The notes under the pieces: generated by a model
Told to the model about the DNA's origin: nothing
Databases searched by the model: none
The model's input: only the letters and a program-made list of their open reading frames with translations
Position numbers and translations under genes: made by a program
Source: Aliiroseovarius sediminilitoris
Lineage (GTDB): Bacteria; Pseudomonadota; Alphaproteobacteria; Rhodobacterales; Rhodobacteraceae
Direction of reading: 5' to 3'
Assembly: GCF_900109955.1 (NCBI RefSeq)
Contig: NZ_FOJB01000001.1
Coordinates: 2,294,001 to 2,358,000, forward strand
DNA length: 64,000 nt
Part shown: positions 41,679 to 58,877 of the stretch, piece after piece
How positions within the stretch are numbered: the first letter of the stretch is position 1
Layout: every line of letters starts with the position of its first letter

Positions 41679-41703
41679 AACGTGTGGAAGCTTGTTTGGT
41701 TCC
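41679..41703 (-). promoter_or_regulatory. EcfG-type promoter for the DUF1328 gene
   Basis: On the minus strand GGAAC (41703-41699), 16 bases, CGTT (41682-41679), an exact match to the alphaproteobacterial general stress consensus, 36 bases before the start codon. Confidence 0.85.
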
Positions 41704-41743
41704 CGATTAATCCTTTCGGAGCCCGAGTTTGGGTAAGACGCCC

Positions 41744-42556
41744 TTACTGCGTTGCCCCAAATTCCGGTGTCGAAACGATTTTGATATCGGCATTGATCAA
41801 CGCATCTCGCCCGCGCGCGGTCAGGTCAGTTGTAAAGTTGAACTGGTCCCGCAATTCGAACGGATAGGCTTTCAGCCGCACGCGCGTGGCATAAACCTCG
41901 TTGTGCATGATCACCTTCACGGGCCGCGCCCAATCAAGATAGGGGCTGGTGTGCGCCACATCCGTCAGAATGTCGATAATTCCAGCCGTGGGCTTGTCGG
42001 GTGCGACCATAAATTCAGCGATACACATCAGGGTTTTCGCCCCGTCATTGGCGTTAGAGATATTTTCAGACCAAATGCGGGAATGCGGAATGGTGACAAC
42101 GTCGTCGTCGGCGGTGCGAATTTTGACGGACCGCGTGTGGATATCAATCACTTCGCCGTAATCATCACCGATGCGAATCCAGTCACCCGAGCGATAAGGA
42201 CGTTCGAAAATAGCAACGATGCCCGCCACCGCGCTGGTGGCCCAATCCTTGATGGCAAACCCCAGCGCCACACCGACGGTGCCCAACACCAGCACGAAAT
42301 TCTTCAGCGTGACATTGAAAACCATCGGAATGATCAAGACCACCGCGACGACGAACAAAGTAAGCCGCGCCAGCGGGATCAGGTTCAGGGCCGGCAGACG
42401 GAACCGTGCGGGCAAATGCTCGGCCACACGCGGCACGACAAAGCGCAACAGCTGGTAAAGCAGCGAAGTTAGCACAATGACCAGCCCGATCTGCACGAAG
42501 GTCCAACTGGACACTTCGTTGAACAATTTGGTCAGATCATAATTCTCGGAATTCAT
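41744..42556 (-). CDS. Small mechanosensitive channel (MscS family)
   Basis: 270 residues: a few N-terminal helices, the pore helix and beta domain with GTVGVALGFAIKDWATSAVAGIVAIFERPYRSGDWI style sequence, and VVTIPHSRIWSENISN. It should open under membrane tension at hypo-osmotic shock. It begins nine bases after the hypothetical protein gene upstream, forming an operon with it. Confidence 0.9.
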   Translation of the reverse strand: MNSENYDLTKLFNEVSSWTFVQIGLVIVLTSLLYQLLRFVVPRVAEHLPARFRLPALNLIPLARLTLFVVAVVLIIPMVFNVTLKNFVLVLGTVGVALGFAIKDWATSAVAGIVAIFERPYRSGDWIRIGDDYGEVIDIHTRSVKIRTADDDVVTIPHSRIWSENISNANDGAKTLMCIAEFMVAPDKPTAGIIDILTDVAHTSPYLDWARPVKVIMHNEVYATRVRLKAYPFELRDQFNFTTDLTARGRDALINADIKIVSTPEFGATQ

Positions 42557-42565
42557 CGCGACATC

Positions 42566-43678
42566 CTATATCTGATCAAGTGGCAGGCCGGCTTCGGACA
42601 CGATACGGCGCACATGCGGATAAGCGGCTTGCCGAATTGACAGCTTCCCCGCGTCGTCATCAACCAGACCAAGCCGTCCCAACGCTGCTGCAAGCCCGAC
42701 GGGCAATGTCATCGGAAGCACGGTGGCCAAGTCTTTTGCGACAAGTGGGCCATGGATCAGCAACGCATGTAACATGAAATGGCCGATGCGCTCGATCCGC
42801 GCGGGCAGTTGCGGCAAGGCTGGATCCTGCAACCAGGTGGTCGTGTTACCTGGATTGCGGTCATCTTCGCCACCTTCCCCGCCTGCTTCCGCTTCCCTGT
42901 TCACCGCGGCATCCAACAGTCTGATCGCAGCCCAAGGGCAGCCATAGGCCCGCGCGGCAAGGGTTTTAAGATACGGATCCTTGATTTCGCCGTCGCCCCC
43001 TTCGGGCAAAATCTCATCGCCAGATTCGGTGGATTTGAACACCTCGTCGCCCATGTAGGCGCGGATAAGTTCCGCCAGGGCTTTGTCTTTGAACGGCGCA
43101 AAACAACGCGCATCTGACACGACAGCCTCGATGGCGGAGGTCTGCGCGAGATAGGTCCAGGTCCAGCTCGACACCCCCAACAGCACGTTGCGCGACGCGC
43201 CATCAAGCTCGGCCAAATAGGACCGCATCGCCGCGCGCCCTTCCAGCGTACGCCGGACCAGAGATGAAATGTCGGGGACGATCAAAGCACCTTTCCCTGC
43301 TGGCACCGCAGCCGCATCGACCAGATCCAGCCCGCGATCAGCCGCCCAATCGGCAAGAAAACCTTGTGGCACGCTGGGCATCGTCACAAAGGCGCAAACG
43401 GAATGTGGCCCGTCAGTGCGCCGTGTCCAATCCAAATAGACGCTGTCCAAACGGTCGAACTGATGCACGCGCAATGCGGCCCATAACTCATCGGGGACCA
43501 CTGATCCTGACACCCGCTCCAGATCATCTGGGAGCAATTCGGCTTTCCGCTCATCCAGCACCCGCAACTTTTCCCACATCCGCCGATAACCATCCTTCAA
43601 CGAACTGGTCGCTGGCGCGCGCGGCCAATCATACCCGCGAACGGGCACAAGGTCTGTGGGAAACGAGGATGATGTCAT
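42566..43678 (-). CDS. Conserved-looking protein of unknown function
   Basis: 370 residues, no signal peptide or clear membrane helix, acidic, many Trp and Leu. I do not recognise a domain. Notable pieces are VPRGYDWPRAP-like N-terminus, an ALRVHQFDRLDSVYLDW segment, and a variable Glu/Gly-rich linker (EAEAGGEGGEDD) near residue 275. It is the first gene of the unit with the MscS channel, so a role in the same stress is possible. Upstream, a near-match to the EcfG promoter is imperfect (see rejected list). Confidence 0.75.
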   Translation of the reverse strand: MTSSSFPTDLVPVRGYDWPRAPATSSLKDGYRRMWEKLRVLDERKAELLPDDLERVSGSVVPDELWAALRVHQFDRLDSVYLDWTRRTDGPHSVCAFVTMPSVPQGFLADWAADRGLDLVDAAAVPAGKGALIVPDISSLVRRTLEGRAAMRSYLAELDGASRNVLLGVSSWTWTYLAQTSAIEAVVSDARCFAPFKDKALAELIRAYMGDEVFKSTESGDEILPEGGDGEIKDPYLKTLAARAYGCPWAAIRLLDAAVNREAEAGGEGGEDDRNPGNTTTWLQDPALPQLPARIERIGHFMLHALLIHGPLVAKDLATVLPMTLPVGLAAALGRLGLVDDDAGKLSIRQAAYPHVRRIVSEAGLPLDQI

Positions 43679-43772
43679 TCGGCTACCTGTGAGACTGGCA
43701 AAGGGACACTGCTGATCAGTGTGCGATATGAACCGGGAAATGCAAAGGTGTTCCTAAACCTGTCTGGCGTCA

Positions 43773-44228
43773 TTACGGATTGTAGAGCGGCACGGTCGAG
43801 ATCGACATTTTCGCCGATCCGCTTTCCACCTCGCGGGCGTGAGCGATGTAGATCAACACCTGATTGGCCTCGTCGAAGATGCGTTTTACCCGCAGGCTTT
43901 TCAGGATGATCGACATGCGCTGGCTGAACACGTCCTCGCCTTCGTCACTGCGATCAATGTCACCGATCACGATTGGGCCGGTCTGACGGCAAGATATTGC
44001 ACTGTTTGACGGGTCCTCGAACCAATTTCCGTTGGACAGTCGATCGACCAACCCACGTTCAAAATAGGCGACATGACAAGTTACACCCTCAACTTCAGGG
44101 TCTCTGATCGCTTCAATAATGATATCGTTGCCCAGCCAGTCGACATCGACGTTGCCCACCTGTTCGGCGCGCGCGGGAGCGAGGCTTGTCAGGAATAGGC
44201 AGGATAGAACGTATTTGAATGATTTCAT
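43773..44228 (-). CDS. creA: CreA family periplasmic protein
   Basis: 151 residues from the ATG at 44228; a GTG at 44240 with AAGGA nearby is a possible alternative. Signal peptide (about 1-21, ending APARAE). The mature part matches CreA: IEAIRDPEVEGVTCHVAYFERG, two cysteines, and a C-terminal SGSAKMSISTVPLYNP. Function is unknown in all bacteria studied. Divergent from the MscS-BON gene. Confidence 0.87.
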   Translation of the reverse strand: MKSFKYVLSCLFLTSLAPARAEQVGNVDVDWLGNDIIIEAIRDPEVEGVTCHVAYFERGLVDRLSNGNWFEDPSNSAISCRQTGPIVIGDIDRSDEGEDVFSQRMSIILKSLRVKRIFDEANQVLIYIAHAREVESGSAKMSISTVPLYNP

Positions 44229-44347
44229 AATCTTGGCCACTTTCCTTGATGTATATCATTCGACGCAGTTCGGAGGAGTCCACCTCAACAGCGACCCGGA
44301 CCTTACGTCGTTGCCCTCACAAACAACAAAAAAAGACATCGCCCTTT

Positions 44348-44372
44348 GGAACCATTCGGGTCATCCTGCGTT
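44348..44372 (+). promoter_or_regulatory. EcfG-type promoter for the MscS-BON/FNT operon
   Basis: GGAAC (44348-44352), 16 bases, CGTT (44369-44372), 30 bases before the ATG at 44402. Exact consensus. Confidence 0.85.
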
Positions 44373-44401
44373 TTCAATCGAAGGTAACTTTGGGACACGC
44401 C

Positions 44402-45790
44402 ATGGGGAAGAACATTTTTCGAGTTATGGCCTTTGCCCTGTTGCTGGCCACATCATTGCCCGTCGGGACAGCGCTGGCCCAATCCAGCAACGACGGGATA
44501 GATGTCGGGGTCGAAACCGAAATCGTTGATACGGATCAGACCATCTCTGTCACCGAAAGCGTGCGGGATGACCAGATTGCCACCCGCATTCAGGCCATCC
44601 TGAAGGCAACCGGGTGGTATGAAGGGGTTCAGGTCGACGTGCAGGATGGGATTGTCTTTCTGGATGGTACAGCGGCATCGTCCAAGCGGCAGGACTGGGC
44701 GCGCGATCTTGCGGCGAAAACCGATGGCGTGGTTGCGGTCGTCAATCGGCTGACCGTAGCGCAAGATGCCGACTTCTCGATTGATCCGGCAATTTCAGAG
44801 CTGCGCAGCCTTTGGGATAAAACGGTCGCAGCCGCCCCACTGATCCTGTTGGCGCTTCTGATCCTGCCCTTGGCGCTGTTCCTATCAGCAGGTGTTGCGC
44901 GACTGGCCCGGTGGGCATTGAAAGAACGGCTGGGGTCCCCTTTCCTGCGCGACGTGACCGCGCGGTTCATCGCTTTGCCGGTGTTTCTTGTGGGGCTGTA
45001 TATCGTGCTACAGATCGCCGGGCTGACGCAGCTTGCGATTTCGGTCCTTGGCGGTGCCGGCGTGATCGGGATCGTCATCGGTTTTGCATTTCGCGACATT
45101 GCCGAAAATTTTCTGGCCAGCCTTCTGCTCAGCCTGCGCCAACCCTTCCGACGCGGCGACTTTGTCGATGTGGCCGGGCACCAAGGCGTCGTGCATAGTA
45201 TGAACACCCGTAGCACGGTTCTGGTTTCACCCGAAGGAAACCACATTCAGATCCCCAACGCCGCCGTTTTCAAGGCGACAATCGAAAACTTCTCGGCCAG
45301 CCCCAGCCGCCGCGGTTCGTTCGAGGTGGGCATTGGCTATGACGCTTCGATCAGCGATGTCCAGAAGATCATTCTGCGAGTGCTGTCAGAACATGACGCG
45401 ATTTCGACCGACCCGGAGCCGATGGTTCTGGCCGATACGCTGGGCGCGTCCACGGTAATCATAAAGATCTACTATTGGTTTGACGGGGAAGCCATTTCAC
45501 CTCTGAAACTGAAATCGGTCCTTATCCGGCGCGTGATGAAGGCCCTGATCGACGCTGGCATCAGTATGCCCGATGAAGCCCGAGAGATCATCTTCCCGGA
45601 GGGCATTCCGCTGGCATCTGCGTCAACCCCCGACACCGACAAGCCGAACATCGCCTCGAAACCAGAGCCCAAACGCGAACCTGAACGCACGGTGATGGAC
45701 GAAGATCTGTCGAACGAGGTGGACAACCTGGAACCGCAGATGCAGGTGCAGGTCGAAGGCGACAAAGACAGCAACCTATTGGACAGCTAA
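44402..45790 (+). CDS. MscS family channel with N-terminal BON domain
   Basis: 462 residues from the ATG at 44402. Order: signal peptide (about 1-25, ending ALAQS), a periplasmic BON domain (about 50-120, with VQVDVQDGIVFLDGTAASS), three or so membrane helices (about 140-250), the MscS pore/beta domain (FRDIAENFLASLLLSLRQPF, RRGDFVDV, NHIQIPNAAVFKATIENF), and a charged C-terminal tail. BON may bind phospholipid or peptidoglycan. EcfG promoter upstream indicates induction in the general stress response. FNT gene follows after three bases. Confidence 0.92.
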   Translation: MGKNIFRVMAFALLLATSLPVGTALAQSSNDGIDVGVETEIVDTDQTISVTESVRDDQIATRIQAILKATGWYEGVQVDVQDGIVFLDGTAASSKRQDWARDLAAKTDGVVAVVNRLTVAQDADFSIDPAISELRSLWDKTVAAAPLILLALLILPLALFLSAGVARLARWALKERLGSPFLRDVTARFIALPVFLVGLYIVLQIAGLTQLAISVLGGAGVIGIVIGFAFRDIAENFLASLLLSLRQPFRRGDFVDVAGHQGVVHSMNTRSTVLVSPEGNHIQIPNAAVFKATIENFSASPSRRGSFEVGIGYDASISDVQKIILRVLSEHDAISTDPEPMVLADTLGASTVIIKIYYWFDGEAISPLKLKSVLIRRVMKALIDAGISMPDEAREIIFPEGIPLASASTPDTDKPNIASKPEPKREPERTVMDEDLSNEVDNLEPQMQVQVEGDKDSNLLDS

Positions 45791-45793
45791 CAC

Positions 45794-46600
45794 ATGACCG
45801 AAGAAGAAATCCAAGAAGAACAGGCCATCGAGGATGCCAGCAAGCTGACGGCCAAAACTGTTTACGAGGTGATCCGGCGCGACGGAGAAGAAGAACTGGA
45901 CCGCAGCAATGGATCGCTGTTCTGGTCTGGCGTGTCCGCCGGGATCGTCATCAGTTTTTCTGTTTTGGGCGAGGCGGTTTTGCGGACCTATCTGCCCGAC
46001 ACAACTTACAGCTATCTGATCGAGAACCTTGGCTACTCTCTGGGATTCGTGATGGTGATCATCGGGCGGATGCAATTGTTCACGGAAAACACCATTACGA
46101 CGGTTCTGCCCTTTCTGCACAGCCCCAGTTGGTCCGTGTTCAACCGCATCATTGTTTTGTGGTCGATCGTTCTGTTTGCCAACACCGTTGGTGCCTTTGC
46201 AATCGCAACATTCTACGCTTACAGTGGCGCCGTCTCAGCCGAGATCCTGCCTGCAATCGAACAGCTTTCACGCCACGCCACCGGTATGCCGGCCGCCGAA
46301 AGTTTTGCCCGGGCAATTCCGGCAGGGATTCTAGTGGCCGCTATCGTCTGGATGTTGCCCGAGGCTGGCGCATCCTCGGTGTCGATCATCGTTCTGTTCA
46401 CGTGGTTGATCGCGGCGGGGGATTTCACCCACATCGTCGCCGGTTCGGTGGAAATGGCGTATCTGATCGTTACCGGCGGGCTCGAACTGCGACAGGCCGT
46501 GTTTGGCTTCTTCTTGCCGGTCTTGGCGGGCAATGTGGTGGGGGGCACCGCTATCTTCGCGATGCTGGCATGGGGTCAGGTTCATCGTGAAATCGACTGA
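45794..46600 (+). CDS. Formate/nitrite transporter family protein (YfdC-like)
   Basis: 268 residues with an acidic N-terminal tail (about 40 residues) and six membrane helices in FNT style (FTENTITTVLPFLHSPSW, then GDFTHIVAGSVEMAY with the pore His). It resembles YfdC rather than FocA or NirC, whose substrates are formate and nitrite. It should pass a small monovalent anion. Same transcript as the MscS-BON channel, so it is probably under EcfG control. Confidence 0.88.
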   Translation: MTEEEIQEEQAIEDASKLTAKTVYEVIRRDGEEELDRSNGSLFWSGVSAGIVISFSVLGEAVLRTYLPDTTYSYLIENLGYSLGFVMVIIGRMQLFTENTITTVLPFLHSPSWSVFNRIIVLWSIVLFANTVGAFAIATFYAYSGAVSAEILPAIEQLSRHATGMPAAESFARAIPAGILVAAIVWMLPEAGASSVSIIVLFTWLIAAGDFTHIVAGSVEMAYLIVTGGLELRQAVFGFFLPVLAGNVVGGTAIFAMLAWGQVHREID

Positions 46601-46621: not shown

Positions 46622-46640
46622 AAAATCATCGACGCGATCA

Positions 46641-46658: not shown

Positions 46659-46695
46659 GTCAAAAACCATCGCATCGACATGGAAAGGCGGACAG

Positions 46696-46881
46696 ATGAA
46701 CAACATGACCATGAGCCTGGGCGGAGCAATCGTCTTAGCCCTTGATATATATGCCATATACAGTATCCTGAGCTCTCGTTCGTCGTCGCTTTCCAAGGTG
46801 CTTTGGACGGTCATTATCCTGTTGCTGCCGATCCTTGGCTTCCTCGTCTGGTTGCTGTTTGGCCCTCGCAGCGTGGATTAA
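46696..46881 (+). CDS. Small PLDc_N-type membrane protein
   Basis: 61 residues with two helices and a short loop; the end LPILGFLVWLLFGPRS matches the phospholipase D N-terminal anchor domain (PLDc_N) found alone in many bacteria. A paralogue lies at 57069-57248. No EcfG promoter of its own was found, so expression may come from the upstream stress operon. Confidence 0.85.
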   Translation: MNNMTMSLGGAIVLALDIYAIYSILSSRSSSLSKVLWTVIILLLPILGFLVWLLFGPRSVD

Positions 46882-46944: not shown

Positions 46945-48780
46945 ATGGTGCTGAACAAGGATTACGACCCCAACCACGATTTCGTCATCGGCAATGAAAC
47001 CGCCGCCCGCAGACTGGTCTGGTTTGTCGACTTTACCGACAAACCCACACGGCGCCTTCGGGACATCATTCTGCGGCTGGCCGACCGATTGTCCCCTGAT
47101 CAGGTCACGGTTGCCGTCCGCTTCACCTACCCTGAAGGGGACAAGCGGGCCGACATTGCAGCGCGGGCTGCCATCGCTGCCGGGCAACAGGACCGATTCT
47201 TCGACATGGTCACTGCGTTGTTTGAAGCGCCTCCGAAATACACACGCGCGTCCGTCGGAAAACTGGCCGACAAACTGGGGTTGGACCTGGCCCGGTTCGA
47301 GGCTGACCTTGATGCACCAGACGTCGCCGAACGCATCCAACATGACCGCAACTCGTTGTCGAAAGAGGTTCCACCCTCGGCGCCCTATCTGTTTATCGAC
47401 GGAACCCTGTATCAAGGTGTTTGGGACGAAGTAGCCCTGCTGGAAGCGATCGAGCGTCCGCTGGGTGTCCGGCTTGAGGTTGCTGCATTTCGTTTTATTG
47501 ATTGGGCCGCGTCCGCCGGGATGACGTTGATCGTCGCGACGGTCGCAGCGTTGCTTTTCGTCAACGTCGGATTCTTTGACTTTTTCGATGCGCTCAGAAA
47601 CACCACGATCGGCCTGTTTGCGGGAAGTTGGCGGTTGGAACTCAGCTTGTTGAGTTGGATCAATGACGCGCTGATGGCGTTGTTTTTCCTGTTGGTCGGG
47701 ATCGAAATCAAGCACGAGTTTGTTGAAGGCGAGCTGTCAAACCGTTCGGCGGCTGCAATGCCCATCATTGCCGCATTGGGCGGCATGGTGGTGCCTGCCG
47801 GGATATATGCCGCGTTGAATTGGGGCACCCCAGAGGTACGTGGCTGGGGGGTCCCGATGGCAACTGACATCGCATTTACTCTTGGTATATTGGCCCTGCT
47901 GGGCAACCGGGTGCCAACATCGCTGAAAATATTTGTGTCGGCACTTGCCATCGTAGATGACCTTGGCGCAATCCTGGTGATCGCTGCCTTCTATGGACAC
48001 GGCTTCCAACTTGCAGCATTCATCGCGGCATGTGTCATCTTCGCTGCAATGATGGCGATGAACATCGGCAAGATCTATTGGCGTGCACCTTATCTGATCC
48101 TTGGCGTTGTTCTGTGGTATTTCATCCATGAAAGCGGTCTGCATGCAACACTGGCCGGTGTGCTGACGGCCGTTGCCTTGCCCAGTCGCGCAAAAGCCAA
48201 CCGGGCCGCGGTGGCAGCGCAGACCGCAAAGCTGTTCGAACGTGACAAACAGATCGGATCGGAAAACATCGTCGCCGCCCCGACTTTCATGCAATTGCAG
48301 ACGATTATGGACCGGCTTGGTGCGCCAGGCGTTCATGTGCGCCATGCACTGGAGAACTGGATCAATTTCCTTGTCCTGCCGCTGTTTGCGTTCTTCAACA
48401 CCGGGCTTTTGATCACTGCCAGCAGCGTGAATTTCACGGCTCCCGAAAGTCTTGGTGCGATCCTCGGACTGGTTGTGGGCAAACCGTTGGGTATCTTCCT
48501 GTTCGTCTATGTCGCCGCAAAACTCGGCATCGGTCGCCTGTCGTCGGAAATCAACATGGCACAAGTTCTGGGCGCCGGTTGTCTGGCCGGGGTTGGCTTT
48601 ACCATGTCGATTTTCATCGCAAATTCGGCCTTCGCGGGATCCCAACTGGAATCGGTCAAACTTGCGGTCCTGCTGGCCTCGTTGATTGCAGCGGTGCTGG
48701 GCAGCGTCATCCTGATCTATGCCCACCGCGCGGTACAGAAATCCTCAGGAAACGAGCCGGCCGGGGCCGAAGCGCCCTGA
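46945..48780 (+). CDS. nhaA: Na+/H+ antiporter NhaA with N-terminal thioredoxin-like domain
   Basis: 611 residues, about 220 longer than E. coli NhaA. Residues 1-175 look like a DsbA/thioredoxin-fold domain, but the usual CxxC is missing (the place reads VDFTDKPTRRL). Residues 180-600 are NhaA, with ATDIAFTLGILALLG, the ion-binding pair in VDDLGAILVIAAFYG and the late FTMSIFIANSAFAG. It exports sodium in exchange for protons and helps pH and salt balance. The fused domain cannot do thiol chemistry and may be a regulatory or assembly part. Confidence 0.92.
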   Translation: MVLNKDYDPNHDFVIGNETAARRLVWFVDFTDKPTRRLRDIILRLADRLSPDQVTVAVRFTYPEGDKRADIAARAAIAAGQQDRFFDMVTALFEAPPKYTRASVGKLADKLGLDLARFEADLDAPDVAERIQHDRNSLSKEVPPSAPYLFIDGTLYQGVWDEVALLEAIERPLGVRLEVAAFRFIDWAASAGMTLIVATVAALLFVNVGFFDFFDALRNTTIGLFAGSWRLELSLLSWINDALMALFFLLVGIEIKHEFVEGELSNRSAAAMPIIAALGGMVVPAGIYAALNWGTPEVRGWGVPMATDIAFTLGILALLGNRVPTSLKIFVSALAIVDDLGAILVIAAFYGHGFQLAAFIAACVIFAAMMAMNIGKIYWRAPYLILGVVLWYFIHESGLHATLAGVLTAVALPSRAKANRAAVAAQTAKLFERDKQIGSENIVAAPTFMQLQTIMDRLGAPGVHVRHALENWINFLVLPLFAFFNTGLLITASSVNFTAPESLGAILGLVVGKPLGIFLFVYVAAKLGIGRLSSEINMAQVLGAGCLAGVGFTMSIFIANSAFAGSQLESVKLAVLLASLIAAVLGSVILIYAHRAVQKSSGNEPAGAEAP

Positions 48781-48802: not shown

Positions 48803-49582
48803 CTATGTCAGCGTTTCGGTCGAGGAAAAGAACATCGCCTGTGAAATGGCGGACAACACTTGCTCGGCCCGGAACGGTTTGGTGATCAGGAACGCAGGTT
48901 CGGGCCGCTCTCCGGTCAGCAGCCGTTCCGGAAACGCGGTGATGAAGATCACTGGAACATCTCCGTGTGCAGCAAGCAAGTCGTTCACAGCATCAATGCC
49001 CGAACTTTCGTCGGCCAGCTGAATATCCGCAAGGATCAGATCAGGGCGCCCGTCTGTGCCGATCTCGACCGCTTCATCGCGTGTTTGCGCCACACCAAAG
49101 ACACGGTGACCAGCGTCGGACACGATCCCTTCAAGGTCCATCGAGATGATAGGTTCGTCCTCGATAATCATCACGGCACCACGTGCGGCCTTGGCCAGCT
49201 CGGTCTGGCCGATGCGGATCAAAGCCTCGGCTTCAGCGGGTTCAACGCCAATGATCCTGGCGACATCCTCCGCCGAGAAATCTTCCAACGCGTTCAGCAA
49301 CACGGCCTCGCGGGAATTTTCGGTCAGCTTTGCCAGACGTTTCTGGGCTTGCGCAGCTGCACCGCGATCCGCATCAGAAACGGGCGCACCCGAGCTTTGC
49401 CAGATGGCGTGAAACAGCCGATACAGCGCCACCCGCGTGTCCTTTTGATCCGGGATGGTATCCGGGTCTGCAATCATCGCCTCCAGGACGGCAGCCGCGT
49501 AAGCGTCGCCTGTCGGTTGGCTGCCGGTCAATGCACGGGCATAGCGGCGCAGATAAGGAATATGTGTCGCGATGTGATCCAT
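48803..49582 (-). CDS. phyR: General stress response anti-anti-sigma response regulator PhyR
   Basis: 259 residues. Residues 1-130 mimic an ECF sigma factor (sigma2-like and sigma4-like helices); residues 136-255 are a receiver with Asp186 in LILADIQLAD as phospho-site and Lys235 in ITKPF. When phosphorylated it binds NepR and so frees EcfG. The ATG at 49582 has AAAGGTGA upstream; earlier starts would run into the promoter region. Divergent from nepR-ecfG. I found no exact EcfG promoter on its own side. Confidence 0.96.
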   Translation of the reverse strand: MDHIATHIPYLRRYARALTGSQPTGDAYAAAVLEAMIADPDTIPDQKDTRVALYRLFHAIWQSSGAPVSDADRGAAAQAQKRLAKLTENSREAVLLNALEDFSAEDVARIIGVEPAEAEALIRIGQTELAKAARGAVMIIEDEPIISMDLEGIVSDAGHRVFGVAQTRDEAVEIGTDGRPDLILADIQLADESSGIDAVNDLLAAHGDVPVIFITAFPERLLTGERPEPAFLITKPFRAEQVLSAISQAMFFSSTETLT

Positions 49583-49627: not shown

Positions 49628-49652
49628 GGAACCCGTTGGTGTTTTGATCGTT
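49628..49652 (+). promoter_or_regulatory. EcfG-type promoter for nepR-ecfG
   Basis: GGAAC (49628-49632), 16 bases, CGTT (49649-49652), 47 bases before nepR. It indicates positive autoregulation of the sigma factor operon. Confidence 0.88.
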
Positions 49653-49698
49653 GTGCCTATGTTAAGCCGGTATAAACCGAGATAACAGAGTGAAAACA

Positions 49699-49869
49699 AT
49701 GTCCGCTGACAACGCCAACAAAAAACGATCACAGGATCTGATCGACGAGAACCTCAAGAAGGCGTTCAGCGAAACGCTGGACGAAGGCGTGCCGGATCGG
49801 TTCAGGGATTTGCTGGCGAAGTTAAAGGAAACAGCCCCCGATAGATCCTCGGAGGAGTCAGAGAAATGA
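49699..49869 (+). CDS. nepR: Anti-sigma factor NepR
   Basis: 56 residues, too short for most gene callers. The centre IDENLKKAFSETLDEGVP followed by DRFRDLLAKLKE is the NepR signature (two helices that clamp the sigma factor). Its stop overlaps the ecfG start as ATGA. It holds EcfG inactive until PhyR~P takes it away. Confidence 0.95.
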   Translation: MSADNANKKRSQDLIDENLKKAFSETLDEGVPDRFRDLLAKLKETAPDRSSEESEK

Positions 49870-50417
49870 CATCCCCTGATCCCCGTGATGCTGTGCTGGA
49901 GCATATTCCCGCATTGCGCGCTTTTGCCCGCAGCCTGACCAAAGATGCCGTCCGCGCGGACGACCTTGTTCAGGAATGCCTGGTCAAAGCTATCGGCAAT
50001 TTCGACAAGTTCAGAACCGGCACCAACCTGCGGGCCTGGATGTTTACCATCCTGCGCAACACGTTCTATTCGGAACGCCGAAAAGCGGTGCGCGAAGCTG
50101 AAGACCCGGAAGGCGAAATTGTCGGCGCCCTGTCAGTGAAGCCCGATCACGACGGCCACATGCAGATGACCGAGTTCAAGGCAGCGTTTCAACAACTGAA
50201 AGCCGAGCATCGTGAAGCGCTGACACTGATCGGCGCGTTGGGCCTGTCGTATGAAGAAGCGGCCGATGCCTGCGAAGTCGCCATCGGGACAATGAAGTCG
50301 CGCACCAATCGCGCCCGAAAAGAGCTGGCCCGGCTTATGGATCTGGATGACGACAAACCAACGGAGCTGACTGACAGCCAAACCCTTTCAATCGTCAATC
50401 AATCAGGACACATGTGA
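49866..50417 (+). CDS. ecfG: ECF sigma factor EcfG (general stress response)
   Basis: 183 residues with sigma2 (about 10-75, RADDLVQECLVKAIGNFDKF) and sigma4 (about 115-170, GLSYEEAADACEVAIGTMKSR) of ECF group 15. It recognises GGAAC-N16/17-CGTT promoters, of which eight exact copies lie in this window. Translationally coupled to nepR before and to the sensor kinase after it (GTGA overlap). Confidence 0.96.
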   Translation: MTSPDPRDAVLEHIPALRAFARSLTKDAVRADDLVQECLVKAIGNFDKFRTGTNLRAWMFTILRNTFYSERRKAVREAEDPEGEIVGALSVKPDHDGHMQMTEFKAAFQQLKAEHREALTLIGALGLSYEEAADACEVAIGTMKSRTNRARKELARLMDLDDDKPTELTDSQTLSIVNQSGHM

Positions 50418-51985
50418 CCCGCGACCGCAGCATCTTGCTAAGCTCACTTCAAAGCCGCTTCGTTGCGGTTTATCTGATCGTCATGGCACCGATTGCGGTG
50501 CTGGCCAGCTACTATCAATATACCATCCAGTCAGACCGCCACCAAGCGCGCGAGATTGCCGCGCTCGATGCTGTGGAAAGCGCCTTTGCGCCCGTGACGT
50601 CGACCCTGATTCAGGCCGATCTTCTTCTTGACCTTCTCAGCGAATTGACCAGTCGCGGTCTGCCCGGTGGTGGCGAGTGCGACAGGGTGATCGACGCCAT
50701 CCTACAGGCAAATTTTCCGATCGAGGCTGTGGGGATTTATAACATGGACGGGCAACCGCTGTGTGCACAAGCCATGCAGCGGTCTGGTGTAGCGACGGAT
50801 GTTGCGTCACCTCCGGTTGCACAATCCCCACGGGTCACGATGACCGACAGCGATATTCTTGCCACAAATATGGTTGCGGACCACATCGTTGCCATCAGGG
50901 CCAAGATTCCGAAAGTGGACCTGCCCGATGTGGCGACGGGGTACATGTTCGTCAGCAGAACCCCGGATACTGCAATGGGGTCTGACCGGGCCGTGTATCA
51001 GGACCTTGGCAACCTTCTTGCCCCCAATGCCCGCGACATCTTGAGCGGCAGATCAGACCGCGATGTGGCCGTTCTTCCGGTCTCTGCCTTCGATCTGCGT
51101 TTGATTGCCACGCTGGCCCCAGGTGTTGCTGCGCCGCCGTTCTGGCTAACCGTCGTCTATGCAGGCTTTGTCCCACTGTTGTTTCTTACTCTCAGCCTGT
51201 TGTTGGCCGATCTGCTGATCCGCAAAATGGCATTGAACGACATCACGCGTCTGACCCGCGATATGCGTGCCTTCCGGCAAGATCGCAATCTTCCAAAGGT
51301 TGGGCTTAGTCGCTGGGCCACGGACGAAACGACAGCCATGCAGGCCGAGTTTTCTGTATTATCAGATCAACTGCTGCACGAAGAGGCGGAAGCGCAGAAC
51401 CGGCTACACAATGCCAACACCCTTCAGCGCGAGATTTTTCATCGCGTCGGAAACAACCTTCAAATCATCCAGTCGATCTTGCGCCTTTACGAAAGTGACG
51501 CCAACACACCAGAAGAACGACAACTGGTTCACCGGTTGGCGGCCCGTATCCGCGTGATAAATCTTGTGCACAACGCCATGCACCGTTCGGTCGACGCACC
51601 TGTATTGCCGGTTGGTCAGGTTGTCAGCAAACTGATCCAGGGCATGCGACACGAAGGCATTGTCTCTGCCAACATCGAATTCGAAGAAACTTACCAAAAC
51701 GTCGAGCTTCGCCTCAACCGTGCCTATGCGCTGTGCTATCTGCTCGTCGAGAAGCTGACGCGCCTGTCGCGTTCCGGTGCCCGGCACATTCAGATCAGCC
51801 TTCTTGAAGACGGCGACCAGGCCAATCTGTCGATTTCAGCGGATGTTGGGCATTTGGCGCAACCCGATCCCGTCAGCGCAAGGCTGCGCCAAGTCTATAC
51901 CCACGATCTTCATGCAATCGCGCAGTGGCATGAAGACACCAACAGTGTGACCTACAAGGCGGTTATGCCGCGGCAGGTGAAATAG
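50414..51985 (+). CDS. Membrane sensor histidine kinase of the general stress response
   Basis: 523 residues from a GTG that overlaps the ecfG stop. A first membrane helix (about 17-33), a large periplasmic sensor part (about 35-235), a second helix (about 238-262), then a HAMP-like linker and a HisKA_2/HWE-type kinase with phospho-His in IFHRVGNNLQII. The ATPase part is degenerate: I cannot find a clear G1/G2 box. The gene position suggests that it passes phosphate to or from PhyR. Confidence 0.9.
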   Translation: MTRDRSILLSSLQSRFVAVYLIVMAPIAVLASYYQYTIQSDRHQAREIAALDAVESAFAPVTSTLIQADLLLDLLSELTSRGLPGGGECDRVIDAILQANFPIEAVGIYNMDGQPLCAQAMQRSGVATDVASPPVAQSPRVTMTDSDILATNMVADHIVAIRAKIPKVDLPDVATGYMFVSRTPDTAMGSDRAVYQDLGNLLAPNARDILSGRSDRDVAVLPVSAFDLRLIATLAPGVAAPPFWLTVVYAGFVPLLFLTLSLLLADLLIRKMALNDITRLTRDMRAFRQDRNLPKVGLSRWATDETTAMQAEFSVLSDQLLHEEAEAQNRLHNANTLQREIFHRVGNNLQIIQSILRLYESDANTPEERQLVHRLAARIRVINLVHNAMHRSVDAPVLPVGQVVSKLIQGMRHEGIVSANIEFEETYQNVELRLNRAYALCYLLVEKLTRLSRSGARHIQISLLEDGDQANLSISADVGHLAQPDPVSARLRQVYTHDLHAIAQWHEDTNSVTYKAVMPRQVK

Positions 51986-52024: not shown

Positions 52025-52049
52025 GGAACCAATCCATCCGTGCCGCGTT
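52025..52049 (+). promoter_or_regulatory. EcfG-type promoter for csbD-like gene
   Basis: GGAAC (52025-52029), 16 bases, CGTT (52046-52049), 38 bases before the ATG at 52087. Exact consensus. Confidence 0.87.
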
Positions 52050-52086: not shown

Positions 52087-52281
52087 ATGAATTGGGACGA
52101 AATCCAAGGTAAGTGGAAGCAGATCAAAGGCCAGTTGAAAGAACAGTGGGGCGAATTGACCGACGACGAAATCGACCAGATCGACGGCAATCGCGAACAG
52201 CTTGAGGGCAAGCTGCAAGAAAAATACGGCAAGACCAAAGAAGAAGCCCGCGACGAGGTCAACAAGTGGTTGGCGGACTGA
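52087..52281 (+). CDS. CsbD family stress protein
   Basis: 64 residues: MNWDEIQGKWKQIKGQLKEQ and GNREQLEGKLQEKYGKTKEEA are the two CsbD helices. Acidic, soluble, general-stress marker in many bacteria; molecular role unknown. AAGGAGG precedes the ATG; an earlier start at 52048 lies inside the promoter. Followed by a terminator. Confidence 0.95.
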   Translation: MNWDEIQGKWKQIKGQLKEQWGELTDDEIDQIDGNREQLEGKLQEKYGKTKEEARDEVNKWLAD

Positions 52282-52378: not shown

Positions 52379-52834
52379 ATGATCGACTATGAAACATTTG
52401 TTGTTCGCAGCCTGGTCGCGATGGGGCTGGGTCTGGTCGTGGGTCTGGATCGCGAGTTCAAACACAAACCGTTGGGTATGCGCGCCTATATGCTGGTCAG
52501 TCTTGGTGCGGCAGCGGTCTGCATGGTATCGCTGAACATCGCCTCGGAAGCAGACGCGAAGGGCGTCGCCTTCGACCTGTCACGCGTGGTCAGCGGGATC
52601 GTCGGCGGCATCGGTTTTCTGGGCGCTGGCGCGATCATGTCCAACAGGAGCAACGGAAAATTGCGTGGTGTGGGAAGCGGGTCGCTGATCTGGGTGGTCG
52701 GCATCATCGGTCTTGCCGTCGGATTTGGATTTGTGATCGAAGCCGCGACTGTCACCCTGCTGTCCTTTCTGATCCTGACGATGGTTGGATTGCTGCGCAG
52801 CCGGTTTGACCTGCAAAACACAGAGGACAGCTGA
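52379..52834 (+). CDS. MgtC/SapB family membrane protein
   Basis: 151 residues with four to five helices and the family marks RLVVGLDREFKHK-like start (GLDREFKHKPLGMRAYMLVSLG), GIGFLGAGAIM. The usual RGLTTAAS segment is altered to RGVGSGSLIWVVG. MgtC proteins limit F-ATPase or help low-magnesium survival. It sits between two EcfG promoters but has none directly upstream. Confidence 0.9.
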   Translation: MIDYETFVVRSLVAMGLGLVVGLDREFKHKPLGMRAYMLVSLGAAAVCMVSLNIASEADAKGVAFDLSRVVSGIVGGIGFLGAGAIMSNRSNGKLRGVGSGSLIWVVGIIGLAVGFGFVIEAATVTLLSFLILTMVGLLRSRFDLQNTEDS

Positions 52835-52838: not shown

Positions 52839-52863
52839 GGAACAATTTGGCCCGTCGTGCGTT
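52839..52863 (+). promoter_or_regulatory. EcfG-type promoter for small hydrophilic protein
   Basis: GGAAC (52839-52843), 16 bases, CGTT (52860-52863), 70 bases before the ATG at 52934. Exact consensus. Confidence 0.85.
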
Positions 52864-52933: not shown

Positions 52934-53149
52934 ATGGCCAAGATTAAACCGTCATACAAACCTCTCGACCTGAAAGGGTCCGAGCAACATCATGATCTGA
53001 AGGATCAGCCTGGTGAAAAAGGCGACAAGGATCATCAGAACAAGTCCGCAACATCATCTGAAGACCCTGAAACCGCTGACGACGACAAGCACCCCGAGAC
53101 AACGAGCAGCGGCGCACTGCACCAGAGTATTGAAGAAGATAAAGACTGA
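52934..53149 (+). CDS. Small, highly charged disordered protein
   Basis: 71 residues, almost no hydrophobic residues, rich in Asp, Glu, Lys, His, Ser and Gly: a hydrophilin-like composition. No known domain. It has its own EcfG promoter and a strong terminator, so it is a real stress gene. It may protect other molecules from drying or salt, as similar hydrophilins do; inference only. Confidence 0.8.
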   Translation: MAKIKPSYKPLDLKGSEQHHDLKDQPGEKGDKDHQNKSATSSEDPETADDDKHPETTSSGALHQSIEEDKD

Positions 53150-53214: not shown

Positions 53215-53238
53215 GAAGTATGTGTAGACAACTTGCGC

Positions 53239-54327
53239 TCAGCTGTCAGGGTCGTCGCCGCGCAGATAGTTGCCCCCGGCGCCCTCACCGCCAAGAAACA
53301 AGCCAACCGAGCGGGTCGACGACGTCTGATCAAGGATCACCTTCACCGTGATCAGGATCGGCACCGCGATGACCATCCCGACCACCGACCAGATCCACGC
53401 GAAAAACGCCACTGCCACAAACACGACGGTCGGGTTGAGTTTAAGTCGATTTGAAATCACATGGGGCGTAACAAATTGTCCTTCGATCGACGTCAACGCC
53501 ATATAGGTTGCAAAGATCAGGATGGCCGTCCACGCGTCATCGTAGACATTGAAACCCACGATTGATGCAAGAAGCGCACCAAACACCGCGCCGATATAGG
53601 GTATGAAGTTCAGTGAGAACGCGATGACTGCGAACATGATGGGGTTTGGCAGCCCCCAGGCCGCCATCGCGGCACCGATGACTATGCCAAGGCAAAGATT
53701 GATCAGGGTGATGCCGCCCAGATACTGGCCCAGCTTTTGCTCGACCTGTTGAACCATCGCGACCGCCGCACGTTTATCTGAGAACCGGGGCAGGCTTTCC
53801 ACCAGTTTACGCACGAAGGATGACCCCGATGAAATCAGGAAGAACATCAACACAATGGTCAGGACAATCTGCCCCAACACCACCGGGGCGGAAGCGATCA
53901 ACGAGCTGACAAAGTTCGTGCTTTCGACCACTTTCACCGCCATTGCCGGTTCGTCCTTTGCGCTGGCAACGGCGTCCTCGGCTGCTTTCGCGGCTTCGCC
54001 CAGTTTATCCAACGTCTCAGCCGCCGCACTCGGCATTCGACGCAGATCGTTAATCATGTTTGGCAAGTCTTCTGCCAACTGCGCAATCGGGTGGCTGAAG
54101 TTCCAGGCCGCAAAGGTCAGCCCCGCGCCTGCCACTGCGCAGATCAAAAAAGCTGTGATGGCGCTGGGGATACCCAGTTTGGACATGCTGCGTTCAACCG
54201 GGCGCATGATCAGAAATCCCAGTATGGCGGCCACAATCGGGATCAGGAAATCGCTGGCCCAGTCAAGAACGAACAGCGCAAGGCTCAGAAAGATGCCAAT
54301 CTGCGCCCAGTTCGGTTTTTGTCTCAC
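53239..54327 (-). CDS. AI-2E transporter family (PerM-like) membrane protein
   Basis: 362 residues from a GTG at 54327 that follows GGGGA and lies one base after the stop of the YihY gene. About eight helices with a soluble insert (about 80-150) and the family segment LNFIPYIGAVFGALLASIVG. Members include TqsA, PerM and sodium-proton antiporters, so substrate is open. Context among stress membrane proteins favours ion or osmotic balance. Confidence 0.88.
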   Translation of the reverse strand: MRQKPNWAQIGIFLSLALFVLDWASDFLIPIVAAILGFLIMRPVERSMSKLGIPSAITAFLICAVAGAGLTFAAWNFSHPIAQLAEDLPNMINDLRRMPSAAAETLDKLGEAAKAAEDAVASAKDEPAMAVKVVESTNFVSSLIASAPVVLGQIVLTIVLMFFLISSGSSFVRKLVESLPRFSDKRAAVAMVQQVEQKLGQYLGGITLINLCLGIVIGAAMAAWGLPNPIMFAVIAFSLNFIPYIGAVFGALLASIVGFNVYDDAWTAILIFATYMALTSIEGQFVTPHVISNRLKLNPTVVFVAVAFFAWIWSVVGMVIAVPILITVKVILDQTSSTRSVGLFLGGEGAGGNYLRGDDPDS

Positions 54328-54328
54328 C

Positions 54329-55282: not shown

Positions 55283-55298
55283 CTATTGTCTCCTGATA

Positions 55299-56514: not shown

Positions 56515-56957
56515 GACTTGTCTCCTGGTTTGGTCATCATGCGCGCAATCGCGAACCCGACCAACGCAGCCCCGCCGGCAAACAACAGCGGGTTTCGTTT
56601 CGCAAAATCTGATACATCGCGCGACAGCTGACCCAGATCCTTGTCGCGGATTGCGTCCGAGGCATCCGCCAAACTGGCAGCCAATTGCCCGAAGCTGCGT
56701 TCCTGAAACGAGCCGTCGCGCAAGGACGCGGCGGCTCCACGCAAAGTGTCAGACGCGCGCGATGCGCTGTTTGCAACCGTGTTGGCTGTGGCTTCGGCGG
56801 TATCGCGGGCCGAACTTGCGATATCCTCGGCACCCGATTTCAGACCCTCGACCGAGGTTTTGACCGCAGATGTCGTATCGTCCACGGCCTTGTCGATCTT
56901 TTTGGCAGCTTGCTTTTTCTTCGTGGTCGATTTGGCAGGTGTGGTTGATTTGGCCAT
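56511..56957 (-). CDS. Lys/Ala-rich protein with C-terminal membrane helix
   Basis: 148 residues from the ATG at 56957 with GGAGGAGAG upstream. Lys/Thr-rich N-terminus (STTPAKSTTKKKQAAKK), long Ala/Ser amphipathic helices, and one C-terminal helix (NPLLFAGGAALVGFAIARM). The NPLL...GG ending is shared with the DUF3618 protein two genes on. Unknown function; first of the three-gene set that may fold into a membrane complex. Confidence 0.8.
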   Translation of the reverse strand: MAKSTTPAKSTTKKKQAAKKIDKAVDDTTSAVKTSVEGLKSGAEDIASSARDTAEATANTVANSASRASDTLRGAAASLRDGSFQERSFGQLAASLADASDAIRDKDLGQLSRDVSDFAKRNPLLFAGGAALVGFAIARMMTKPGDKS

Positions 56958-57068
56958 CCTCTCCTCCTTCTTTGCTTGTGTGATAGGGGCTTCCATCCCG
57001 TTTGGAACGCGCCGCGTTCGGCCCCGAAGGCGCCTGTCAGATACGAGGGGACGGAAGACAAACGCTGC

Positions 57069-57248
57069 TTAGGCGCCTTTCGGACCTGCAACGAACCAGA
57101 TGATAAAGCCGATCAGTGGCAGGACCAAAATCAACAGAATCCAAAGCACCTTGTTCAATGCGGGCACGCCTGATTGCAGCACCGATACAATTGCCCAGAT
57201 GTCGAGGATCAAAATAATCAGGCCACCTATACCAGACACGAAATCCAT
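57069..57248 (-). CDS. Small PLDc_N-type membrane protein (second copy)
   Basis: 59 residues: a helix from GGLIILILDIWAIVSVL, then a second ending LPLIGFIIWFVAGPKGA, the PLDc_N pattern. Paralogue of 46696-46881. An exact EcfG promoter is 52 bases upstream. The Lys/Ala-rich gene starts 112 bases downstream and may be read from the same promoter. Confidence 0.88.
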   Translation of the reverse strand: MDFVSGIGGLIILILDIWAIVSVLQSGVPALNKVLWILLILVLPLIGFIIWFVAGPKGA

Positions 57249-57299
57249 TCTGCTTTCCTTTCATTTCCATGCAGCCTGAAAGGCTGCTTTCGCCAAACC

Positions 57300-57324
57300 A
57301 ACGCCTGGCTGACCGATTGGTTCC
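57300..57324 (-). promoter_or_regulatory. EcfG-type promoter for the PLDc_N gene
   Basis: On the minus strand GGAAC (57324-57320), 16 bases, CGTT (57303-57300). Exact consensus. Confidence 0.85.
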
Positions 57325-57344
57325 CAAAACAGATTTCGGTGTGT

Positions 57345-57803
57345 TCAGGACTGTGCTTCCAGATCGGCACATATGATCTTCGCAACCTCGTCAAGCGGAT
57401 GATTTGTCAGCGTTTTCGGCACCTCGGCGATCACGCGTCTGCGGACCTCTTGATGGATTTCATCACGCAAAACCGCCAATATGTCCGGTGCTGCACATAT
57501 GACCAGATGCGAAAACTGGTCCTTATGGGCCTTGCGATATAGATGTTCGGCGAGATCCTGAGCGAAGCGTTCTTTGCCCAGTTGGTGCCAATCGGTGTCT
57601 TCATAGGCCGATTTTCCCTGATTGGCGCTTTGGTGCACCCGCCCGCGCCGATTGGCGGCCTGTTCACGGATCGCTGGATTGTCCTGTTCTTCCTTCCGCA
57701 GCACCTGCAATTTAGGGTGCAGCGCGCTGCCTTCATTGACAAGAAACAGCGCTTTCTCGCCATCCGCGATCAAGACCCAGGTTCCTTTTTGCAGTTTCCT
57801 CAT
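57345..57803 (-). CDS. Host attachment protein family (baeRF/eRF1-like)
   Basis: 152 residues, soluble. It begins KGTWVLIADGEKALFLVNEG and has FSHLVICAAPDILAVLRDEI, marks of the family named after a protein needed for attachment to host cells in Agrobacterium; its fold resembles part of the release factor eRF1. Actual activity unknown. It is common in alphaproteobacterial stress clusters. Confidence 0.85.
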   Translation of the reverse strand: MRKLQKGTWVLIADGEKALFLVNEGSALHPKLQVLRKEEQDNPAIREQAANRRGRVHQSANQGKSAYEDTDWHQLGKERFAQDLAEHLYRKAHKDQFSHLVICAAPDILAVLRDEIHQEVRRRVIAEVPKTLTNHPLDEVAKIICADLEAQS

Positions 57804-57889
57804 GGGGCTTTCCTTTTCTGGTCAAAGATACGTTGATTTAGGCGCGATGCGTCAGAGCGGCCACTGTGCTCGAATAACGCTGCGCGGGT

Positions 57890-58360
57890 CTAATCCTCAA
57901 GGCTGTCCTCGCGCTTGTCGTTGATCAGTTCGCGTTCTTTTTTCTTGCGCGCTTCAAACTTGGCGCCAAACCCTTCGATCTCTTCTTGATCTATGGTTTC
58001 CTTTGCGCGTTCAAAAACTTCGTTTTCTTCTTCATCCATGTGGTGCTCATAGTCGTGCGCCAGTTGGTCGAATTTCTTCATCCACAGATCCGACGTCAGT
58101 GTCATGGCGTTGATTTCTTCCATCATATCGTCAAGCTGCTGATGCTCGTGCACCGAATGTCGGGCTGCATCCTGTCCCCAAGTTTTTGAAATCAGTTTCG
58201 AATAAAAGGTTTCTTCTTCCGCAGCTGCGTGGCTTTTCACATCTTCATAGAAGACGCGCCAAAGCCTGCCTCGGTCTTGTGCGCTGCTCTGCTTGATCTT
58301 GTTCAGCAGCTCGCGGTGATTGTCGTGATCGTTCTCGATGGCATCATAAATATTACGCAT
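57890..58360 (-). CDS. Hemerythrin HHE domain protein
   Basis: 156 residues, four-helix bundle with the di-iron ligands spread as in HHE proteins: ENDHDNHRELL, SHAAAEEETFY, HEHQQLDDM and DYEHHMDEEE. It binds oxygen, nitric oxide or iron. The C-terminal tail is Lys/Glu-rich. It lies between two EcfG-served genes; I found no exact promoter of that type for it. Confidence 0.92.
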   Translation of the reverse strand: MRNIYDAIENDHDNHRELLNKIKQSSAQDRGRLWRVFYEDVKSHAAAEEETFYSKLISKTWGQDAARHSVHEHQQLDDMMEEINAMTLTSDLWMKKFDQLAHDYEHHMDEEENEVFERAKETIDQEEIEGFGAKFEARKKKERELINDKREDSLED

Positions 58361-58442
58361 TTTCAGATAGTTCCTTTGATCGTCGTTCGATTAAGGTCAA
58401 GAAAGTGGAGTTAGCCGGCAATCTAGAAAACGCTTCTCTGCA

Positions 58443-58694
58443 TCACGACGGACAAGCACTCACAGGGTCCGCATGATACGCTGGATTCTGATGCTGGGCC
58501 GTCGTGGCATCCAGCCGCGACAAGCCGTCCGAGATTGCGCAAATCGTTTCGGCACGCGCCTGTACGGGGCGATTATCCATGTGTGACAGCAATCTTTGGT
58601 AAATCTCCAAAGCTTTTGTCAGGCTTTGCTCAGGGTGCAGAGCATCTTGATGTCTGCCCGCCTGCCCTTTCGATGGGGAATGAAGTGTTCTCAT
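58443..58694 (-). CDS. Small protein of unknown function behind an EcfG promoter
   Basis: 83 residues from the ATG at 58694, with GGAAGGTGG upstream. It is soluble and rich in Gln, Ala and His, with one predicted helix around LTKALEIYQRLLSH. No family recognised. The exact EcfG promoter 56 bases before the start and the good ribosome site make it a likely real gene. Confidence 0.65.
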   Translation of the reverse strand: MRTLHSPSKGQAGRHQDALHPEQSLTKALEIYQRLLSHMDNRPVQARAETICAISDGLSRLDATTAQHQNPAYHADPVSACPS

Positions 58695-58749
58695 GTCCAC
58701 CTTCCATGTATTGTCAACATAGTGCCGCGCCACACGCGCCTGATTTCAA

Positions 58750-58775
58750 AACGTCACTACACCGTCATTGGTTCC
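58750..58775 (-). promoter_or_regulatory. EcfG-type promoter for the 83-residue protein
   Basis: On the minus strand GGAAC (58775-58771), 17 bases, CGTT (58753-58750). Confidence 0.8.
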
Positions 58776-58851
58776 AAACTTTTTGAACAAAATGCCGCGC
58801 GGGTTTGGTGTCAGATGGCTTGAACGTCACCGAACAACGGTCCGTCTCGGG

Positions 58852-58877
58852 GGAACGTTTTGCAGGCCGATGGCGTT
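58852..58877 (+). promoter_or_regulatory. EcfG-type promoter for the phospholipase D gene
   Basis: GGAAC (58852-58856), 17 bases, CGTT (58874-58877), 69 bases before the ATG at 58946. Together with the minus-strand site at 58750 it forms a divergent pair. Confidence 0.82.

Follow-up and report, generated by a model that had tools for sequence, protein, structure and literature searches.

The general stress response of Alphaproteobacteria, as described in Methylobacterium, Caulobacter (SigT), Sphingomonas and Sinorhizobium (RpoE2), is built on three regulators, the sigma factor EcfG, the anti-sigma factor NepR and PhyR. According to reviews, phosphorylated PhyR sequesters NepR and EcfG is thereby freed. 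The published consensus for EcfG promoters is GGAAC-N16/17-C/GGTT (PMC12148442; PMC7083833). The reviews and the papers cited here by PMC number were accessible in part, and what is said of them refers to those parts.

We examined a 64-kb stretch of the Aliiroseovarius sediminilitoris genome (contig NZ_FOJB01000001.1, positions 2,294,001 to 2,358,000; hereafter the window) that carries the same three regulators, with phyR divergent from nepR-ecfG and a gene of the HisKA_2 type adjoining. The likeness to the described systems extends to the promoter consensus, to a predicted EcfG promoter before nepR-ecfG, and to csbD and mscS, which are among the published targets. Eight exact copies of the motif GGAAC-N16/17-CGTT lie within 17.2 kb around ecfG. 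We consider it highly probable that these elements serve as promoters for RNA polymerase carrying EcfG, and that the region from 38.4 to 60.5 kb is a general-stress island.

Eight predicted promoters around ecfG

A sequence-only reading of the window had picked out eight exact elements by eye, had placed each 30-70 bases upstream of a gene, and had estimated that about 0.3 such matches would occur by chance in 17 kb. An exact search of both strands for GGAAC-N16/17-CGTT (the loose motif) recovered all eight at the same coordinates and on the same strands, and the distance from CGTT to the start codon was measured as 29-70 bases. Each of the following is an exact match and a predicted EcfG-type promoter; conservation refers to the five congeners that carry ecfG.

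41679-41703, minus strand: promoter of the DUF1328 gene; 35 bases to the start; kept in 5/5 congeners
44348-44372, plus strand: promoter of MscS-BON and FNT; 29 bases to the MscS-BON start; kept in 4/5
49628-49652, plus strand: promoter of nepR-ecfG; 37 bases to the NepR start; exact in 3/5
52025-52049, plus strand: promoter of CsbD; 37 bases; kept in 5/5
52839-52863, plus strand: promoter of the hydrophilin-like gene; 70 bases; kept in 4/4 congeners having the gene
57300-57324, minus strand: promoter of PLDc_N gene 2; 51 bases; kept in 4/4 congeners with an ortholog
58750-58775, minus strand: promoter of the 83-residue gene; 55 bases; kept in 5/5
58852-58877, plus strand: promoter of phospholipase D (PLD); 41 bases; kept in 3/4 congeners having the gene

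The element at 49628-49652 would give ecfG a promoter of its own, of the GGAAC-N16/17-CGTT type. The exact scan, coding DNA included, found no match between 41.6 and 58.9 kb besides these eight. A ninth match in the window (32933-32957, minus strand) does not belong to the cluster and falls within coding DNA. In 100 shuffles of the whole 64 kb that preserved dinucleotides, the mean was 1.33 matches and the maximum five, never nine; the corresponding value of about 0.36 per 17 kb agrees with the earlier estimate.

When the whole genome (3,413,458 bases in six contigs) was scanned, 64 loose-motif matches were found, eight of them in the 17.2-kb stretch that makes up 0.5% of the sequence. Motif density is thus 0.465 per kb there and 0.016 per kb elsewhere, a 28-fold local excess by which equal density throughout the genome is rejected. 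The next-densest stretch of this length on the main contig has three matches, and none on the other contigs has more than two. Could the cluster be a chance local excess of a nine-base pattern in 3.4 Mb? The genome total would fit such an explanation, being no higher than the approximately 71 matches expected by chance (scaled from the window shuffles), and we nevertheless give it next to no credence: the Poisson probability of eight matches at the rest-of-genome density is about 8e-10, or about 2e-7 when corrected for all such stretches, every one of the eight elements stands before a gene, and congeners keep the site in 33 of 37 cases. The window shuffles and the conservation lead us to reject chance as the origin of the sites.

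Beyond the cluster the loose motif is of little help. With its genome total at chance and 122 matches for the motif read backwards vs 64 forward, it identifies nothing there by itself. The backwards excess is also seen for the GGAACC form in congeners without ecfG, so the deficit of the forward motif is not caused by EcfG. Fifty-five matches fall outside the window; by a simple gene finder based on codon usage, 33 of them are coding, 14 are close to a gene's 5′ end (on either strand) and eight are intergenic. With so many coding matches and a total at chance, the loose motif yielded little as a genome-wide regulon finder.

Conservation was assessed in a genus sample of 21 genomes including this one. 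Five congeners (G006, G007, G009, G012 and G016) encode a full-length EcfG, 88-95% identical. In each of them the cluster is present with its gene order largely preserved, and 35-40 kb of it contain 4-13 exact sites. An exact site stands before the orthologs of the eight site-bearing genes in 33 of 37 upstream regions, mostly at about the same distance; the hydrophilin, PLDc_N 2 and PLD genes of G009 were left out for want of an ortholog, and the starts of the 83-residue gene in G009 and of PLD in G012 are approximate. Among 20 other cluster genes, extra sites were found before PLDcN1 and CreA (both in G016 and G012) and before HAP (G016), and the sites listed for NhaA (G012) and ExoD (G007, G009) belong to neighbouring genes. 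No exact site precedes phyR in this genome. The spacers, for which alone column identity was used because the motif columns are 100% identical by construction, have a mean pairwise identity of 0.56 over six gene sets. Since the spacers are so poorly conserved, low divergence does not explain the conserved boxes.

Directly 5′ of the −35 box of MscS-BON, at 44318-44347, there is a further stretch, AAAAAA..CATCGCCCTT, which is conserved with small variations in seven aligned genomes, the ecfG-less G014 among them. It could be the binding place of a second regulator or an UP-like element.

Distribution of the regulators and the motif in the genus

PhyR (E values up to 1e-30), the PhyR sigma-like domain and NepR (both over cut-off) were found in exactly the same six of the 21 genomes as EcfG. 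The three regulators are missing from the other 15, two of which (G008 and G010) are incomplete. With a strict motif, GGAACCAW-N13/14-CGTT, the six carriers have 45 matches (7, 7, 7, 11, 8 and 5) vs 12 in the 15 non-carriers, and the same pattern read backwards, with eight matches in the carriers and 25 in the others, does not follow ecfG. In 12 other genomes of the family or class the strict motif is rarer, with 22 matches, eight of them within about 10 kb of ecfG.

Twenty-nine of the carriers' strict sites lie inside the cluster and 16 outside it, the latter amounting to 2.7 per carrier vs 0.8 per non-carrier genome. These outside sites look mostly real: nine of the 16 were read, and seven of these are followed by a ribosome-binding site and a start codon, one of the seven (L244) being called coding by the gene finder. 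Genes behind outside sites include those for a DUF305-like protein in two carriers (like that behind the loose site L030 of this genome), a 164-residue protein with a signal-like start, also in two carriers, and a protein that is PRC-barrel-like by eye and without a Pfam hit. The proteins behind sites L005, L010, L011 and L019 gave no Pfam family. Three of the non-carriers' 12 strict sites are followed by any candidate start, and only that of G014 by an ATG and a recognised family (DUF1328).

GAAC-type −35 boxes are common to many ECF groups, and the genome has four further ECF-like hits. On these grounds the elements might be bound by a repressor or by a different ECF sigma factor, an explanation that we regard as very unlikely. 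The strict motif tracks EcfG, NepR and PhyR across the 21 genomes, the motif stands before nepR-ecfG and equals the published EcfG consensus, and similarly weak ECF hits occur, among the matches listed, in congeners without ecfG. Another ECF sigma factor was rejected on the strength of the strict-motif distribution and of these last hits.

An rpoB tree of 18 genomes (leaving out G009, whose rpoB is partial, and G008 and G010, in which no rpoB was found) places five carriers in one clade of eight (100/100) together with three non-carriers. G014 is sister to the carrier G006 (100/100) and G020 to the carrier G016 (96/95). The tree forces at least three changes of ecfG state, and the order inside the ecfG clade is mostly unresolved. 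To the left of the cluster, the DUF1538 gene at 36700 is present in 19 of the 21 genomes, and this flank is common to five of the six carriers; the block of G016 sits elsewhere. Five non-carriers (G001, G005, G011, G019 and G020) have unrelated genes beyond the DUF1538 flank, and, apart from the six carriers, only G014 has an ortholog of MscS-BON (at least 78% identity). Since several close relatives without the partner switch are also without the block, the stress programme appears to be retained or lost mostly as a unit together with its regulators.

G014 presents a half-lost case. At the locus this genome has no ecfG and keeps the second MscS gene (MscS2), a 370-residue gene, CreA, MscS-BON, FNT, PLDcN1, NhaA and a piece of a GMC gene; it is without the LOV kinase, DUF1328 and all genes from PhyR to PLD. 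Its MscS-BON is 89% identical, and in the promoter before that gene the −35 element GGAACC is intact and the −10 box reads TGTT for CGTT, a change that would look like decay after the loss of EcfG. No exact site was found in the 28 kb read at this locus. A second ecfG-like gene, 41% identical, lies on another contig (C5) in a mini-cluster of its own (L246:3567-9354), and no NepR or PhyR over cut-off was found in the G014 genome. Four exact sites lie within 5 kb of this gene, three of them close before genes for a double PRC-barrel protein, CsbD and DUF1328; the fourth is some 440 bases upstream of a Crp/Fnr regulator gene, and genes for a phospholipase D and an AI-2E transporter lie alongside. 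An EcfG-type sigma factor, the motif and the target families are thus seen together a second time.

In general, these comparisons indicate that the eight elements are very probably EcfG promoters. The proposal of the sequence-only reading, that ecfG sits inside a cluster of promoters of its own type, gains from the local density, the conservation in congeners, the hits of curated models and the −10 change in G014. The locus may accordingly be described as a putative autoregulated general-stress island holding most of the recognisable strong EcfG promoters of the carriers. Besides the genome total and the backwards control given above, several points weigh against this interpretation. G006 has no exact site at nepR or PLD, G009 none at nepR, and G012 none at MscS-BON, where it reads GCGGTT. 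The cluster of G009 is reduced, being without MgtC, YihY, hemerythrin, HAP and PLD, so the block is not invariant, and the decay in G014 concerns one promoter and one base of its −10 box. The carriers' excess of strict sites (about 1.9 outside vs 4.8 inside) gives the cluster a share of about 72%, which is likely an overestimate because the choice of the strict pattern followed inspection of the cluster (five of its eight sites fit) and promoters with weaker boxes elsewhere would be missed. For GGAACC-N15/16-CGTT the ranges overlap, with 19-27 matches in five genomes with ecfG vs 5-22 in 14 without it (G010 left out). Finally, the absence of the block was read at the site in five of the 15 non-carriers, and the genome-wide search of non-carriers covered EcfG, NepR, PhyR and MscS-BON.

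Gene content and the predicted regulatory circuit

The principal genes of the region and the basis of their naming are as follows.

38434-39444, plus strand: LOV-type sensor kinase (PAS_9, HWE/HisKA_2 and HATPase; GKNCRLLQ motif)
41485-41643, minus strand: DUF1328 protein (PF07043)
44402-45790, plus strand: MscS channel with BON domain (domain search)
45794-46600, plus strand: formate/nitrite transporter FNT (PF01226)
46696-46881, plus strand: PLDc_N protein 1 (PF13396)
46945-48780, plus strand: NhaA antiporter with thioredoxin-like N-terminus (PF06965)
48803-49582, minus strand: PhyR (NF006623 above cut-off; PF22029/PF22233)
49690-49869, plus strand: NepR anti-sigma factor (PF18557)
49866-50417, plus strand: EcfG sigma factor (NF009198 above cut-off; Sigma70_r2/r4_2)
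50414-51985, plus strand: HisKA_2 protein with HRxxN motif and degenerate ATP-binding domain, PhyT/PhyP-like (Pfam HisKA_2/HWE only; alignment)
52087-52281, plus strand: CsbD (PF05532)
52379-52834, plus strand: MgtC family (PF02308)
52934-53149, plus strand: hydrophilin-like protein, 71 aa (no Pfam family; named by composition)
53239-54327, minus strand: AI-2E family transporter (PF01594)
57069-57248, minus strand: PLDc_N protein 2 (PF13396)
57890-58360, minus strand: hemerythrin-domain protein (PF01814)
58443-58694, minus strand: 83-residue protein (no family; 44-62% identical matches in five congeners)
58919-60472, plus strand: phospholipase D family protein (PF13091/PF00614)

Also encoded between 38.4 and 60.5 kb are ExoD, an MFS transporter, a second MscS-type channel, CreA, BrkB/YihY, and DUF3618-like, holin-like and baeRF12 proteins. 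The NhaA gene is in pieces in G012 and was not found in the G016 stretch. The GC content of 40-60 kb, 55-58%, falls inside the range of the window (55-60%); the domain annotation shows no integrase among the named genes of the region, and there is no tRNA in the 64-kb window. The left flank (35933-38248) carries DUF1538 genes, a P-II-like protein and a CBS protein. It contains no single-domain response regulator, and no genome search was aimed at SdrG-like genes.

EcfG scores 275.5 bits vs a cut-off of 270 for NF009198; the model is titled only 'RNA polymerase sigma factor', and the identity as EcfG comes from context, including a nepR gene that overlaps ecfG by 4 bp. The HisKA_2 protein gave no HATPase_c in the Pfam search, and in an alignment the HRxxN motif is kept and the N- and G-boxes are lost in all six carriers. 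In six family relatives that were compared, the counterpart still has both boxes, so the degeneration in this genus looks independent. From these motifs, the protein looks like a PhyT-type phosphotransferase. The LOV kinase has intact N- and G-boxes, and its GKNCRLLQ corresponds to the LOV flavin-binding consensus GXNCRFLQ; its score for NF052306, 152 bits, is below the cut-off of 450. All five congeners with ecfG have an ortholog of this kinase in their clusters; the 28 kb read in G014 contains none. As far as sequence can indicate, this kinase at the edge of the cluster is a likely autophosphorylating partner, and it is possible that it provides a light input to the stress response.

By analogy with known EcfG biology, we propose that in unstressed cells NepR would hold EcfG. 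Under stress, PhyR would be charged by kinases, of which the likely light-sensing LOV kinase may be one, with the HisKA_2 protein as a putative PhyT-type phosphotransferase, and charged PhyR would remove NepR from EcfG. Free EcfG would then fire its own nepR-ecfG promoter, a positive feedback, together with the seven other promoters, which lie up to 9 kb to its left and right. The genes so induced would be of an envelope and osmotic-protection type, namely those for MscS, FNT, CsbD, DUF1328, PLDc_N, PLD and the hydrophilin-like protein.

Clustering in the family and comparison with described loci

Eighty named ecfG loci (L119-L198), mostly from Rhodobacteraceae by title and at least five not, were searched for the exact loose motif; L119 is the congener G009. 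Around ecfG there are 305 exact sites vs 23.5 expected (20 shuffles each), and 72 of the 80 loci have at least one. In the kilobase preceding ecfG they reach 1.2 per kb. Between 2 and 8 kb past the ecfG start the figure is 0.17-0.27 per kb, and at 4-10 kb upstream of ecfG it is 0.04-0.09 per kb. Thirty sites fall in DNA called coding. Another 211 are non-coding and have a gene start on the same strand close by, either no more than 150 bases away or with the site overlapping a possible 5′ end; for 71 of these the gene resembles none in the window. Most frequent among their named targets are phyR (45), DUF1328 (22), nepR (21), AI-2E (10), PLDc_N (10) and CsbD (6). At 29 loci, two divergent sites overlap with an offset of 6-7 bases in what is, by position, the phyR-nepR gap, and two polymerases could hardly bind such interleaved sites at once. 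Clustering around ecfG is therefore family-wide.

The core locus can also be plasmid-borne, as in Dinoroseobacter shibae pDSHI02 (seven sites in 24.5 kb, one coding), Roseobacter litoralis pRLO149_94 (two sites, one coding), R. ponti (six sites) and strain SC52 (four sites), all as raw counts; only the SC52 plasmid is typed as mobilizable. The plasmid of strain S2214 (CP081165, L251) has no exact site. It carries GGAAC-N16-AGTT before CsbD, AI-2E and DUF1328 and a diverged EcfG (51%), and a shift of −10 specificity is possible.

These data bear on an alternative that accepts the promoters as real and takes their clustering to be ordinary: an ancestral cluster inherited vertically and lost in the ordinary way, within a scattered regulon whose best-matching promoters merely happen to lie here. 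We place it slightly below an even chance. The clustering at 80 loci is what it would predict, and in Sphingopyxis granuli, with 79 transcription units, csbD and mscS are far from nepR2-ecfG1 by locus tag (PMC7083833). Outside promoters also exist in the carriers (those of the DUF305, 164-residue and PRC-barrel-like genes). The rpoB tree, with its three or more state changes, can be read in the same way, the remnant in G014 being at least one true loss; the cluster of G016, however, lies away from the flank common to the other five carriers, some relatives have a plasmid-borne locus, and G014 has a second ecfG-like mini-cluster. The carriers' excess of strict sites is, moreover, far smaller outside the cluster than inside it.

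A broader conjecture, which we put forward only tentatively and hold to be less likely than not, is that the general stress response of this family is an exchangeable module. The sigma factor would travel, between chromosome and plasmid and between strains, with most of its own promoters and targets, and the regulon would change by gain, loss or replacement of whole islands, not promoter by promoter. G014 would then represent a replacement underway, its native core already deleted, its remaining promoter in decay, and a distant ecfG-like gene at work in a mini-island that has the same kinds of target (CsbD, DUF1328, AI-2E and PLD).

Several described loci resemble this one in part. Rhodobacter sphaeroides RSP_1272-1274 (PMC5830050) and the loci of Rubellimicrobium thermophilum (PMC12148442) share the core, with EcfG promoters predicted at the latter, and the accessible parts of these papers describe no surrounding block of target genes. 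In R. thermophilum, the LOV-HWE kinase RT-HK phosphorylates one PhyR in vitro (PMC12148442). PhyT (formerly PhyP) of Sphingomonas melonis (PMC5898713) is, like the HisKA_2 protein, a phyR-locus gene product with HRxxN kept and a degenerate ATPase domain, a likeness drawn from description, not sequence. The plasmid-borne EcfG2 of Rhizobium etli (PMC3892343) parallels D. shibae, R. litoralis and R. ponti in being on an extrachromosomal element; as an extra copy without adjoining NepR or PhyR it is closer to the second ecfG-like gene of G014, whereas the three plasmids carry a canonical nepR-ecfG-phyR with some stress-type genes around it.

Our literature search, which had partial coverage and reached few subscription journals, found no report of a clustered EcfG regulon or of its block-like loss, and is weak evidence of novelty. 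General stress responses are usually described as global, scattered regulons. If the island is what we propose, one deletion of about 20 kb would remove a stress programme and one transfer could install it, and the evolution of a global regulon would become testable. The genus, whose members include carriers, non-carriers and one half-lost case closely related to each other, offers a natural experiment. In rhizobia, canonical EcfG1 orthologs are described as virtually omnipresent (PMC3892343), whereas 15 of the 21 genomes of this genus lack the regulators. The regulon of S. granuli is described as genome-wide (PMC7083833), whereas here most of the predicted strong promoters lie within 9 kb of ecfG. 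The motif, the partner switch and the autoregulation are already known from other systems; the concentration of the sites and their apparent block-like loss seem to be new.

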